Shown here in pieces: positions 22,875 through 28,516 of a stretch of 32,919 bases of DNA. The notes beneath the pieces are model-generated. The model saw only the letters and a program-made list of their open reading frames with translations, was not told the DNA's origin and made no database searches. Location of the stretch: positions 1 to 32,919 of the forward strand of contig CAIQBC010000073.1 of NCBI GenBank assembly GCA_903869955.1, in the 5' to 3' direction. A program made the translations under genes and the position numbers. Source of the DNA: an uncultured Opitutia bacterium. Lineage in GTDB: Bacteria; Verrucomicrobiota; Verrucomicrobiia; Opitutales; Opitutaceae. Every line of letters starts with the position of its first letter. Positions within the stretch are counted from its first letter, which is position 1.

Positions 22875-24587
22875 TCAGGGGCGGGTGGCCGGCGGTGGCG
22901 CCGCCGCCGGCCCGCGACCGGCATTGGGGCCGGTCCCCGCGCGGGCCCGATCGAGCAGGGCGCGTTCCTTGGGCAGCAGCTTCACCGCGGCGGCCAGGTC
23001 CAGCCAGCGGGCGGCCTCGCCCGGCGGACCGGCGACCGCGAGCACGTAGCCATAGGCGAGTGCGGCGCGCGGCGAAGTGGCCAAGGCGGCCTCGTGCGGC
23101 TTCAACGCGGCGAGCGCGCCAGCGGGGTTGCCGGCACCGAGGAGCAGGAGCGCACCGGCGGCGAGGGACTCGGGCGGGGCGGCGGGTTGCGCCAGCGCGG
23201 CGAGCGCAGCGGCTTGCAGCTCCGCGTCAACCTTGCCGCCGAGCACCACGCCGAGCCATTGCGCATGGGCCTGTGCCGCCGGCTCGGCGGGGCGCGCGCG
23301 CGCCCAGGACTGCGCGACTTCCCACGCCTCGGCACTGTCGCCCTCCGCCTCGGCCCCGGCGGCGAGCGCGCGCCAGGCGGAGGCCTCGGCGGGAAAATTT
23401 CGGGCGACGCGCCAGAGCGCGGCCTTCGTGGCGTCGGACCAGGTCCACGCCTCGGCCAGCCGGACGAGGACGTGCAACGCGGACAACTGCGCCGTGGCGA
23501 GGTCCAGCGCATCGTCCCAGGTGGCGCGGGCATGAACCGAGCCGGGGCCCTCGTGCTGCGCGCGCGCGGCAAAGGCGAGTGTGACGACATCCGCAGTGAC
23601 ATGGCCCCATGCGCTGTCCTGCACGAGCGGTTGCAGCCGCCGCCAATCATGCGCGCGGGCGGCGAGATCGGCGTGCGCGGTCATCACGGCGGGCGCGGTG
23701 CGCACGGCGGGGTCGAGGCCGTCGAGCCAGGCGAGCACCTCACGCGCCAGCCCGAGCTCACCGAGCCAGGCGACCAGCACGGCCGCATCACCCGCCACGG
23801 GTGCGGGCTGCGCCTGGGCATGGCGCGCAAGCGCCAGACGGCCGACGTGGCTGTCGGCCAGCTCTGGCGCGACCTCGTGCGCGAGGCGGTCCCACTCGGG
23901 CTCCGCCGACGGGGCACGGCGGCCGGCCCGCATCAGCTCCACCGTGGCGCGAATCGTCAGCGGGCCGCTGCGCGCCAGCTCGACGAGCACGGCCCGGCCG
24001 GCGGCGGCGACGGGGGCGGCGGCCGAGGTGAACTGCAAGGCGGCCAGGTTGAAACGCGCGCGAACGTCGCCCGGATCGAGCTGCGCGACGCGCGCCAGCG
24101 CATGCTCCAGGCCCGCGCGGTCGTCGGTCAGCAGGGCGAGGCCGGCGGCCAGCCGTTGGTACTCGATCAGCTCGCGTCCCGGCGCGGACACGCCGGCGAG
24201 CGCCTCGCGCGCGGCCGCCTGCTCGCCCAGCCGCAGGGCGCAGCCCGCCAGCCCAAAGCGGGCCTCGTCGCGCTCCGGCTCGAGCACCACGGCCTCGCGC
24301 CAGCGCGCCAGCGCGAGGGTCGGGTCGGCGCGCTCGTAAAATTCGGCGAGCTGGCGGCGCGCGTCGAGGTCGCGGGGGTTGACCTGCACGGCCTGCTCAA
24401 GCAACAGCCGCGTGCGCTGGAAATCGTGTTCCAGAAACGCCGCCTCGGCCTGTTGTTCGTTGTGGTGCTTGCTCCAAGCCTCCCACCGCACCACCCCGGC
24501 ATAAGCCGCGACCAACAGCCCCAGCACCGCAGCCCCGCCGAACAACCACCGGCGGCGGCGCTGGCTCGGCTCCGGCGCGCGGGCCAT
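22875..24587 (-). CDS. TPR-repeat protein with N-terminal TM anchor
   Basis: MARAPEPSQRRRRWLFGGAAVLGLLVAAYAGVVRWEAW then Ala-rich helical repeats (AAFLEHDFQRTRLLLEQAVQVNPRDLDARRQLAEFYERA…). Confidence 0.8.
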   Translation of the reverse strand: MARAPEPSQRRRRWLFGGAAVLGLLVAAYAGVVRWEAWSKHHNEQQAEAAFLEHDFQRTRLLLEQAVQVNPRDLDARRQLAEFYERADPTLALARWREAVVLEPERDEARFGLAGCALRLGEQAAAREALAGVSAPGRELIEYQRLAAGLALLTDDRAGLEHALARVAQLDPGDVRARFNLAALQFTSAAAPVAAAGRAVLVELARSGPLTIRATVELMRAGRRAPSAEPEWDRLAHEVAPELADSHVGRLALARHAQAQPAPVAGDAAVLVAWLGELGLAREVLAWLDGLDPAVRTAPAVMTAHADLAARAHDWRRLQPLVQDSAWGHVTADVVTLAFAARAQHEGPGSVHARATWDDALDLATAQLSALHVLVRLAEAWTWSDATKAALWRVARNFPAEASAWRALAAGAEAEGDSAEAWEVAQSWARARPAEPAAQAHAQWLGVVLGGKVDAELQAAALAALAQPAAPPESLAAGALLLLGAGNPAGALAALKPHEAALATSPRAALAYGYVLAVAGPPGEAARWLDLAAAVKLLPKERALLDRARAGTGPNAGRGPAAAPPPATRP

Positions 24588-24666
24588 GCTGGGAAAGCGC
24601 GACCAAGGAAATTGGGATAGGCCCATGGGGAGGATGAAAATATTATTGACTGAAGCCAAACTTATC

Positions 24667-24684
24667 CTAGGGTTATCACCCTAG
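24667..24684. promoter_or_regulatory. Palindromic motif CTAGGGT-TATC-ACCCTAG upstream of PEP-CTERM gene 1
   Basis: Perfect 7-bp arms, 4-bp spacer; same core TAGGGTN4ACCCTA as at 27316-27331; abuts ATG 24685. Confidence 0.7.
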
Positions 24685-25914
24685 ATGAAGCGAGCTTCAA
24701 AAGTCAAAGCAGATTTACGTCTAGCCCTCGGGCTAGCCGCCGGACTGCTCTGCTTTTCTCCGGGACGGGCGCAGACCGCGATCACGGCCGTCACCACCAC
24801 GACCGCCACCGAGTCCCACACCACTGACGCCAACATTTTGACCGGCAGCCTTTCGTCCGGCACCGCCGCTGCCAGCGCCACGTTTGCGGCTACCAGCAAC
24901 GACCTGCAGGTTTCCACTTTCACCGCCGGCACCGGCACCCAAAGCGCCCAATACCTCTATTCGGCGACCAGCAGCGCCAACGCCACGGCCTCCATTGTGC
25001 GTCGCAACACCACCGGCATCACCGGCGGCGGCGCCCTTGCGAATGAAAATGGCTTCTCCACCTGGTATGCAAACACCTCGACCTTCAGCCTGAAGTCCGG
25101 CTACGACACCAGCGCCAACGATGTGCTGCTCGGCAACAACCTTTACCGCGGCTCCGACAATCTTTTTGTCAACAACAACGGCCAGACCACGACCCCGAAC
25201 CAGAGCAACATCGAACGGATTGACTTTCTTTTCGGCTCCCTGAGCACCCTCGGGGGCAATACCATCAGCGCCGGCATCACGGCCAACGCCGCCCTCGCGC
25301 TGGCCGTGTTTGACCGCGGGGTCGTCAATGCCCACGACCCCTTCCATATCGCCCTCATCACCGGCTACGACGGCAGCGGCAACCCCATTTATACCAGCGC
25401 CAACATCCCAGCGCTCACGGCGCTCGCGACCACCTCCGCCAGCTATGGCACGGTCAATCCGGTCAGCACTTTCAGCTACACCCTGTTCCGCGACGACAAC
25501 AACGAGGGCAACAACCTCGCCACGTGGGATGCCAACACCGAGACCTCCTCCCAAGGCATCGGCGGCGTCGTGTTCACGCTGGCGGATTTTGGCATCACCG
25601 GCGCCGAGATCAACGCCGGCCTGACCATCTATGGCTACTCCGTCATGGGTGCCGACGTGACCACCACCCTCTCCAACCTCGGCGGGACGAACTACACCAA
25701 CCCCACCTTTTATCCGACGGCCTCCACCGACGCGAGCGGCAGCAACGTGGGCGGCATTGATTTGGTCGCCGTCAACGGCATCGGTTTTACCAAAAACCCC
25801 GCCCCCGAGCCCGCCACCTACGGCGCCTGGCTGATGGGCGGTGGCTTGGGGCTGACGGGCTGGCGAAACTGGCGCCGCCGCCGCTCCGTGGCGGTCACTT
25901 CGCCAGCGGCTTGA
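24685..25914 (+). CDS. PEP-CTERM sorting domain protein (paralog 1)
   Basis: Signal peptide MKRASKVKADLRLALGLAAGLLCFSPGRAQ; C-terminal PEPATYGAWLMGGGLGLTGWRNWRRRR. Confidence 0.9.
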   Translation: MKRASKVKADLRLALGLAAGLLCFSPGRAQTAITAVTTTTATESHTTDANILTGSLSSGTAAASATFAATSNDLQVSTFTAGTGTQSAQYLYSATSSANATASIVRRNTTGITGGGALANENGFSTWYANTSTFSLKSGYDTSANDVLLGNNLYRGSDNLFVNNNGQTTTPNQSNIERIDFLFGSLSTLGGNTISAGITANAALALAVFDRGVVNAHDPFHIALITGYDGSGNPIYTSANIPALTALATTSASYGTVNPVSTFSYTLFRDDNNEGNNLATWDANTETSSQGIGGVVFTLADFGITGAEINAGLTIYGYSVMGADVTTTLSNLGGTNYTNPTFYPTASTDASGSNVGGIDLVAVNGIGFTKNPAPEPATYGAWLMGGGLGLTGWRNWRRRRSVAVTSPAA

Positions 25915-27181
25915 GCAGGGCAAATTTCCCGCTCGCAGCCGGCGCGACGGTCTTGCGGCGGAAGGCCGCCACGCGTGCGGACCCGCCGAGCAGCCGGGCC
26001 AGTGTGGCCTCGATCCCGGCCTGCGCCGCCGTCTCGTCGGCGACATAGTGGAAATCCCACCGGGTCTCACCGGTCTGCACGAGCGACCAGTGCCAGCAGG
26101 CGAAATTTTCCGGCAGCGCAGCGTCCACCTCCGTCGGCGAGACGAGCGTGCCGTCGGGGCGAAAAAACAGGCCGCTCTCGCGGCCGAGCAGCCGGAAGCC
26201 ATTCGGAAATTTTTGCACGATGTCGCCTGTGCGGTAGCGCAGCAAAGGCATCGCTGCGCGGTCGCGTGTGGTGAGGTGGATTTGGAAAACGTTGTCCGGT
26301 CGCGCCGCAGCCCCAAGGCCGGTCGCAGGGTGCCAGGGCACGAGCTCGACAAAGGCGTTGCCATCAATCACCCGCGAGTCGTCCGCAAACGCGTCGCCGA
26401 CGAAAATGTAACCCGCCTCGGTCGAGCCGTAGAGATCCACCTGCATCGCACCCGGGAACGCCTCCGCGATGCGCCGCCCGTGCTGCGCGCTGGCCTTGCC
26501 ATAGGTCAGGATCACGGCGCGGACGCTGGGCACGGCGACGTGGCGCTGGCGGAGGGCGCGCGCGAGCAGCGAGAGATAGACCGGCTCGCCCTCCAGCACC
26601 TCCGGCTGCACGGCCTGCAACTCGACCACGATGCGATCCCACTCGGCCTCGGGAAATGCAAAAGGGTCGCTGGAGAGATTGAGATAGACCGTGCCGTCGA
26701 ACCAGCGGTGCGGAAAGGGATGATCCTCGTAGGGACAAAGGTTGCTTGAGCACCCGACCGGCGCGAGCACGCACTTGCGGTGGGCGCGGTCGGCGTAGGG
26801 GGCAAGCACGGGGTGGGCGCGGTAGGCACGGCGGGTCTGGGCGTTCCACCATCCGTCCTCCATGATGACGGTCATCGGCCCGCCCGTGGTGCCGGAGGTG
26901 TGCTCGTATTCAAACCGCTTCGCGGCAAACCCGCGCTCAATCTCGGCGTAGTCCGCAAAGAATGCCTGATGGCCGCGCGCGATGATCTCGGGCTTGGTCA
27001 GCGCGGGAATCTCACGGTAACACGACCAACGCAGAGGATCGGCGTGGAGCGGAAAGCGTTGGGCGTAAAGCGGACTACGCGCATAGATGGCACGGACTTC
27101 CGACTCCAGCGATCCCGGTAAAAAATCGGCCACGGCAGGGCCGAGGGCTTCGGGGGCGTTGGCAAAAATCGGCGCGGACAT
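25895..27181 (-). CDS. Adenylate-forming enzyme, F390 synthetase / phenylacetate-CoA ligase-like
   Basis: P-loop YEHTSGTTGGPMTV, YGSTEAGYIF, LLRYRTGDIV; about 430 aa as in PaaK/F390-synthetase-related proteins. Confidence 0.82.
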   Translation of the reverse strand: MSAPIFANAPEALGPAVADFLPGSLESEVRAIYARSPLYAQRFPLHADPLRWSCYREIPALTKPEIIARGHQAFFADYAEIERGFAAKRFEYEHTSGTTGGPMTVIMEDGWWNAQTRRAYRAHPVLAPYADRAHRKCVLAPVGCSSNLCPYEDHPFPHRWFDGTVYLNLSSDPFAFPEAEWDRIVVELQAVQPEVLEGEPVYLSLLARALRQRHVAVPSVRAVILTYGKASAQHGRRIAEAFPGAMQVDLYGSTEAGYIFVGDAFADDSRVIDGNAFVELVPWHPATGLGAAARPDNVFQIHLTTRDRAAMPLLRYRTGDIVQKFPNGFRLLGRESGLFFRPDGTLVSPTEVDAALPENFACWHWSLVQTGETRWDFHYVADETAAQAGIEATLARLLGGSARVAAFRRKTVAPAASGKFALLKPLAK

Positions 27182-27315
27182 GCGATGTAAGCACGGAGCG
27201 AAACGCAGCCGCAGGCGATGTCAAACGGCACCGAAAGGCGTCCTCTTATATCGATCCCCCGACGGCGGGGAAACGGGTGCAATCAACAATTTATTCATAA
27301 GCTACTTATGAAACA

Positions 27316-27331
27316 TAGGGTAAACACCCTA
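27316..27331. promoter_or_regulatory. Palindromic motif TAGGGT-AAAC-ACCCTA upstream of PEP-CTERM gene 2
   Basis: Perfect 6-bp arms, 4-bp spacer; followed 7 bp later by TTGACC (27339-27344)-N16-GATAGT (27361-27366), a possible promoter. Confidence 0.7.
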
Positions 27332-27391
27332 ATTTCTGTTGACCCGCCTCGAAAAAAGCCGATAGTGAGGGGAGAAACCGCGCTGCCTCCC

Positions 27392-28516
27392 ATGAACCTC
27401 GCCCACCCACTTGCTCTGCTGAAAACTGCCTTGCGGCAGGTTTTTGCGCTGGCATTGCTGGCCATGGCTCTCAGCCCTGAGGTGCACGGCCAGATGGCGA
27501 TCACCTCTTGGACTACAACCACCGTCTCAGACAGTGCGAACCAAACCGTCAACGGCATCACCTATGAGAACCAGTATACGACGGTGAACACCTTCACGAC
27601 GGCGAACGGCAGCACTTATTACGCGTTGTCTTCAGCCGTTCAGGCCGACCAGGCCTATGTGCGTCGGAACACCACTGCGGAGCCAAATGGGATCGGCTGG
27701 ATGTCCGTCCGCAACGGGGCCGACGACAGCGTGGCCGGCACCTACTATCCGACCGAGCGAGCCATGCTGCTCTCGGGCAACCTCTACAACTCGACTTTCG
27801 ACACCTTTACCAACAACACCGGCACGCTGTCGGGTCAGCAGACCAATGTCGAGCGCATCGACTTCGTGTGGTCGGCGGGCTACAAGGTTCTCTCGGGCGA
27901 TGTGCTTTCGGTCTTCAACATTGATCCCGCCACCTCGCAGGACTCCTTCCGCATTGCCGTGTTCACCGGCTGGGACTCCGTTCATAACAAGCCCACCAGC
28001 TACGCCACCACCGGGGTCGTCATCGGCCAAGGCGCCTATGGTGGTCTGCTGCCGCTGAGTTACCCGGCCGGCACTTCCACCACGAGCACCTGGAACGCCG
28101 ATACCTTCAGCAATGGCAACAGCCTGTCGGGCACCGGCTCGTTTGTTTTCACCCAATCCCCCCAAGGTATCGGCGGGGCCGCCATCAACCTCACCGACCT
28201 CGGGATCGCCAACGGCCAGACGATCTACGGCTACTCCATCATGGGGCCCGACGTGAACCCGGCCACCGCGTCGGACTTGGTGGACTGGACGAACAGCACG
28301 GTGTATCCCACCGACACGAGCCAAGTGGACGGCACCGCTGATTTCTCCTCGTTCGGCGGCCGCTTCATCCGCCCGGTGCCCGAGCCTGCGGCCTACGGCG
28401 CGCTCCTGCTGGGCGCGGGCCTCGGTCTCCTCGGGCTGCGGCGGCTCAACCGCCGGGCGGACGCCGCAAACGGCGCCGCTCCGCCCACACCGGCTCGAAG
28501 AGAAACAGCGCGTTGA
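27392..28516 (+). CDS. PEP-CTERM sorting domain protein (paralog 2)
   Basis: Signal peptide MNLAHPLALLKTALRQVFALALLAMALSPEVHGQ; C-terminal PEPAAYGALLLGAGLGLLGLRRLNRR; shares VRRNTT, LL.GNLY, N.ERIDF, D.F.IA..TG.D, QGIGG, IYGYS.MG.DV with paralog 1. ORF could extend to 27308 or 27218. Confidence 0.9.
   Translation: MNLAHPLALLKTALRQVFALALLAMALSPEVHGQMAITSWTTTTVSDSANQTVNGITYENQYTTVNTFTTANGSTYYALSSAVQADQAYVRRNTTAEPNGIGWMSVRNGADDSVAGTYYPTERAMLLSGNLYNSTFDTFTNNTGTLSGQQTNVERIDFVWSAGYKVLSGDVLSVFNIDPATSQDSFRIAVFTGWDSVHNKPTSYATTGVVIGQGAYGGLLPLSYPAGTSTTSTWNADTFSNGNSLSGTGSFVFTQSPQGIGGAAINLTDLGIANGQTIYGYSIMGPDVNPATASDLVDWTNSTVYPTDTSQVDGTADFSSFGGRFIRPVPEPAAYGALLLGAGLGLLGLRRLNRRADAANGAAPPTPARRETAR

Follow-up and report, generated by a model that had tools for sequence, protein, structure and literature searches.

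In Proteobacteria, PEP-CTERM genes are preceded by a shared upstream motif that is tied to a two-component system, PrsK/PrsR, and that includes a sigma-54 −24/−12 element (Haft 2006, PMC1569441). This motif has been reported only in Proteobacteria; when the system was described, the regulation of PEP-CTERM/exosortase genes elsewhere was left open and the motifs outside Proteobacteria were still to be found (PMC1569441). Here we analyze a 16-bp palindrome, TAGGGT-N4-ACCCTA, that stands before two PEP-CTERM genes in a 32,919-nucleotide stretch of DNA (hereafter the window) from an uncultured Opitutia bacterium of the Opitutaceae (the host), and that provides a testable handle on this regulation in Verrucomicrobia. 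Like the PrsK/PrsR motif, it is a common upstream DNA motif before PEP-CTERM genes; the difference is that it overlaps or adjoins sigma-70-like promoters, stands before few PEP-CTERM genes and has a wider range of targets.

In its architecture the palindrome can be compared with two other boxes. The ComA box, TTGCGG-N4-CCGCAA, consists of inverted hexamers four bases apart; our palindrome shares the inverted hexamers and the four-base gap with this NarL/FixJ-type site but differs from it in sequence. The arms TAGG/CCTA are also superficially like those of the DtxR box, TTAGGT...ACCTAA, which is set apart by its consensus, a longer palindrome with another spacing. The DNA motifs of ComA have been treated elsewhere (PMC4797271). 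Among the titles and abstracts that we found on the motif or on a verrucomicrobial regulon, there was no description of the palindrome. An operator with its regulon is a well-known kind of element, and the TAGGGT-N4-ACCCTA example appears to be new.

We propose, with a probability of roughly 0.7, that TAGGGT-N4-ACCCTA is the predicted operator of a conserved, sequence-specific and dimeric transcription factor in the verrucomicrobial family of the host, acting by repression from the promoter spacer or the −10 region and having in addition a small class of sites upstream of the promoter. From the palindrome one can predict which genes for surface, matrix and signalling functions are regulated together, in a family for which genetic tools are scarce, and the site could serve as bait for the regulator.

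Palindromes in the window and in the host genome

Both palindromes lie exactly where a previous sequence-only reading had placed them, with the candidate operator 1, TAGGGTTATCACCCTA, at 24668–24683 and the candidate operator 2, TAGGGTAAACACCCTA, at 27316–27331, neither being assigned a strand. That reading had seen no other copy by eye, and the window indeed contains no further match with up to 2 mismatches; when the window was shuffled with dinucleotides preserved, 1 of 100 shuffles yielded two matches at this threshold. The AT-rich patches in GC-rich DNA and the divergent intergenic setting that it had described for both sites were also confirmed. The local GC content is 38% and 40%, compared with 68% window-wide. 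Site 1 is located between a TPR-repeat gene (22875–24626, minus strand, with the start at ATG 24626 inferred) and PEP-CTERM gene 1 (24685–25914, plus strand), and site 2 is located between an AMP-binding-like gene (25895–27181, minus strand; PF00501 weak, E 1e-4) and PEP-CTERM gene 2 (27392–28516, plus strand), the start of which is most likely 27392. The placement of the site relative to the gene is unlike in the two cases, since 1 bp separates the end of site 1 from the gene 1 ATG.

Gene 1 encodes a protein of 409 aa with PF07589 at residues 372–398, and gene 2, a paralogue of gene 1 with 39% identity over the aligned part, encodes one of 374 aa. The PF07589 score was 19.5 bits for gene 1 scanned alone (21.1 bits with its neighbours in the frame) and 18.9 bits for gene 2, so that both genes, scanned singly, fall just short of the Pfam cut-off for PEP-CTERM, 20.7 bits. 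A homologue of the TPR gene divergent from gene 1 adjoins an exosortase gene in another genome (G090, locus L094), where a site is found between a PEP-CTERM gene and this TPR gene, in the intergenic region common to both. Homologues of the AMP-binding-like gene adjoin PEP-CTERM genes in three loci (L050, L239 and L248).

In the host genome (2.84 Mb in 323 contigs, 89% complete), the exact palindrome was observed twice, both times in the window, compared with 0.08 copies expected from base composition. A search allowing one mismatch detected two further copies, one of them 93 bp before the gene of a FecR-like secreted protein downstream of leuS and the other in the gap between an IHF-like gene and ubiE. 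In relatives, both the FecR gene and the IHF/ubiE gap have a site that is exact or has one mismatch, so that the host genome probably holds four working sites.

Enrichment and conservation in the family

We searched 200 genomes of the family for the exact palindrome and, as a control, for the palindrome letters read backwards, which have equal composition and hairpin strength. The palindrome was found in about 105 copies in 66 genomes, whereas the control gave 25 copies in 24 genomes. Judged by the control, about a quarter of the exact sites may be due to chance, and several exact sites adjoin unrelated genes. Of 100 fetched sites, 92 had an ORF downstream within 200 bp and 5 were deep inside one, whereas 17 of 24 control copies (71%) were inside ORFs (Fisher p 2e-11 for the difference, with gene calls from a crude ORF chooser and with sites from related genomes that are not independent). 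The spacer also differed, its GC content being 23.5% in the sites and 51% in the control. The palindrome is therefore an inverted repeat with fixed arms and a free spacer that is enriched over a matched control, as is characteristic of the operator of a dimeric transcription factor. Among 162 genomes of the same order outside the family, exact sites were at about the control level (about 14 vs 15 copies). One exact site outside the family precedes a pilin-like gene, like a family target (L207, L093).

The sites are also retained by orthologous genes. The orthologues of gene 1 in two congeneric genomes, 73% and 65% identical, have TAGGGGTATTACCCTA and TAGGGGTATACCCCTA, respectively, where the host has TAGGGTTATCACCCTA, and each of the three sites is separated from the ATG by 1 bp. 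For gene 2, the host site TAGGGTAAACACCCTA is matched by TAGGGTATAGCCCCTA in the G001 orthologue and by TAGGTAAAACACCCTA in the G102 one. In the gap between leuS and the FecR gene, a site with at most 3 mismatches was present in 16 of the 18 family loci where both genes adjoin, the exceptions being G004 and G021; in two further families that share this gene order, the gap contained no such site. Upstream of asnB of the XrtA/PEP-CTERM system the site is kept in several genera, and in three genera it stands immediately upstream of a hybrid histidine kinase gene, the G050 copy of which encodes CHASE, PAS, HisKA and HATPase domains. The flanks are unrelated between non-orthologous sites, and orthologous positions keep the site while their flanks diverge, which argues against a dispersed repeat. 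Such conservation at the promoters of orthologous genes is the behaviour of a transcription-factor operator.

Targets of the palindrome

The targets were surveyed at about 100 sites, with 5 kb on each side, by clustering and scanning the neighbouring genes. The most conserved target is the FecR/beta-barrel operon: about 20 sites belong to the gene of the FecR-like secreted protein downstream of leuS, after which a BBP2-type beta-barrel gene comes wherever it was read. Further targets are the genes of giant passenger-repeat (autotransporter-repeat) proteins (15, several with a C-terminal PEP-CTERM signal), histidine kinases (about eight), the XrtA/PEP-CTERM system amidotransferase (NCBIfam TIGR03108; 7), DUF4097 proteins (about 6), MscS channels divergent from ksgA (three) and DUF481 outer-membrane proteins (two), together with single PEP-CTERM genes. 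These computations show an enriched, intergenic site that orthologous promoters retain and that goes with genes for the surface, the matrix and signalling.

The sequence-only reading had taken the palindrome for a candidate operator of a PEP-CTERM regulon and had suggested a scan for enrichment before PEP-CTERM genes. The part of this claim that held is that the site serves a regulon as its conserved operator and that PEP-CTERM genes are over-represented among the targets, since they were found at 4–6 of 37 sites in 12 genomes with Pfam scans but account for about 0.5% of the genes (p ranging from 4e-8 to 6e-4, depending on the choices made). What did not hold is a PEP-CTERM regulon as such, because PEP-CTERM genes are a minority of the site targets and most of them have no site. 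In the host, at least 10 genes pass the PEP-CTERM cut-off, and exact sites stand only at the window pair; 11 relatives have 2–61 PEP-CTERM genes, yet at most 5 exact sites each; and one genome without any PEP-CTERM match carries three sites. A dedicated PEP-CTERM regulon, with a site before most PEP-CTERM genes, was ruled out by the target survey and these counts. The regulon is wider than PEP-CTERM and comprises surface, matrix and signalling genes.

Since three genera keep the hybrid histidine kinase gene as a target, it would be plausible for a phosphorelay to act on a response regulator. The sequence-only reading had offered a LuxR/FixJ-type HTH protein as one reasonable guess. The regulator might be a NarL/FixJ-type response regulator, a proposal on its identity that is drawn from geometry and is compatible with the operator reading, although we consider the odds to be somewhat against it. 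The 6-N4-6 inverted repeat resembles the ComA box, sites are found before several histidine kinases, and at L078, L070 and L139 the site adjoins a gene for a NarL-type regulator. However, the proteins of these three loci appeared by inspection to be of different subfamilies, and similar operators are used by other HTH families. When the fetched loci were scanned for NarL-type domains with a regular expression, which missed the L070 and L139 proteins, no regulator recurred with the sites.

Two features of the target proteins were seen in passing. The FecR-like secreted protein and the BBP2-type outer-membrane barrel form a conserved family pair after leuS, as in L200 (151–2305) and L274 (1501–3553), and a PEP-CTERM signal at G001:C10 52523–52597 terminates an open frame of 8781 residues.

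Promoter geometry and mode of action

The upstream sequences that we inspected show sigma-70-like hexamers. At gene 1, a probable −35, TTGACT (24646–24651, plus strand), is separated by N16 from the operator and puts its TAGGGT at −10. The two orthologues have TTGACC at N17 and N16, and across the three genomes TTGAC precedes the site by 16–17 bp. At gene 1, then, the operator itself probably occupies the −10 position. At gene 2, the pair TTGACC-N16-GATAGT that had been noted 7 bp after site 2 is present, with the candidate −35 at 27339–27344 and the candidate −10 at 27361–27366 (both plus strand). This TTGACC is kept in G102, whereas in G001 there is no TTGACC after the site but a TTGACG 3 bp before it. 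An alternative gene 2 promoter, TTATGA-N18-TAATTT (27306–27335, plus strand), has a weaker −35 and would enclose operator 2.

Two classes of sites were distinguished by their position. Among 83 oriented sites, we counted 31 cases of a TTG beginning 8–13 bp before the site, and no shuffle exceeded 19; part of this signal is due to the relatedness of genomes and to the coding ends of leuS, which makes the counts non-independent. TAnnnT begins at site offsets 9 and 14 more than elsewhere. The modal −35/−10 spacing in this class is 16 bp (TTG at −8, TAnnnT at +14), and in this commonest class the palindrome appears to lie inside the core promoter, within the −35/−10 spacer. The second class, which includes gene 2 and consists mostly of surface-protein genes, has TTGAC 7–9 bp downstream of the site, in 8 cases compared with a mean of 0.34 and a maximum of 4 in shuffles. 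The distance from the site to the start codon varies widely, from 1 to about 230 bp, and start codons 10–12 bp after the site would fit leaderless starts from spacer-class promoters. An operator of the MerR type, in which a −35/−10 spacing of 19–20 bp surrounds the dyad, was rejected, the modal spacing being 16 bp.

These positions suggest that at most targets, among them gene 1, a dimeric HTH protein would bind over the −10 region or the −35/−10 spacer, and that the bound dimer would exclude RNA polymerase at gene 1 and in the spacer class. Repression is indicated for gene 1 and the commonest class, where the site is within the core promoter. In the smaller class, including gene 2, the dimer would be placed 7–9 bp upstream of a TTGAC −35 and may activate, or may repress by another route; because this position suits activation, a dual regulator is possible. 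For the surface and matrix genes, the most likely regulator, as far as site positions can tell, is a dimeric repressor or a dual regulator, and a single mode of action is uncertain, given the two site classes. More speculatively, and less likely than not, a hitherto undescribed regulator of the verrucomicrobial cell surface might serve the whole family through a single palindrome, repressing some promoters and activating others according to where the site lies; it would co-switch the FecR/porin genes, the matrix amidotransferase, the adhesin giants and the PEP-CTERM proteins, with the hybrid kinase, itself under its control, as feedback.

The sequence-only reading had favoured an activator bound just upstream of −35. 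The geometry at gene 2 and in the small class like it, which is far above shuffles, accords with this, and so does TTGACCCG, which follows the site in both the host and G102. However, for gene 1 and both of its orthologues the TTGAC upstream means that the site covers −10, the larger class has TTG before the site and TAnnnT from 9 or 14 bases into it, and gene 2 of G001 has its TTGACG before the site. A pure activator box is improbable in view of these positions, and repression from within the core promoter remains the preferred reading for gene 1 and the larger class.

It is far less probable that the palindrome works as an RNA hairpin in the 5′ leader, acting on translation or RNA stability. 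At many genes, 1–12 bp separate the end of the palindrome from the start codon, and a 6-bp stem with a 4-base loop would form. What is kept, however, is the sequence and not just the pairing: one-arm mismatches are tolerated at orthologous sites, and only the forward sequence is enriched and not the equally stable reversal, which argues against a hairpin. In addition, the inferred promoters place most sites at or upstream of the transcription start. Chance or a dispersed mobile repeat can practically be dismissed, since, although there are only two exact host copies and the control turned up 25 times by chance in the 200 genomes, the sites are enriched with an intergenic bias and stay at orthologous positions, with unrelated flanks at non-orthologous ones.

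Operator copies were also seen in pairs. In L050 (4775–4806), two of them, TAGGGTCAACACCCCA and TAGGGTCTTAACCCTA, stand head to tail with no gap, before a PEP-CTERM gene that is syntenic with gene 2 of the window. Paired operators with one mismatch, 43 and 60 bp apart, are present in L215 (3157–3215) and L225 (3193–3268), with a pilin-like gene and a passenger-repeat gene downstream. In L201 (1501–1560), which belongs to another family of the order, an exact site is followed by an imperfect second copy, AAGGTAAACACCCTA, right before a start codon.
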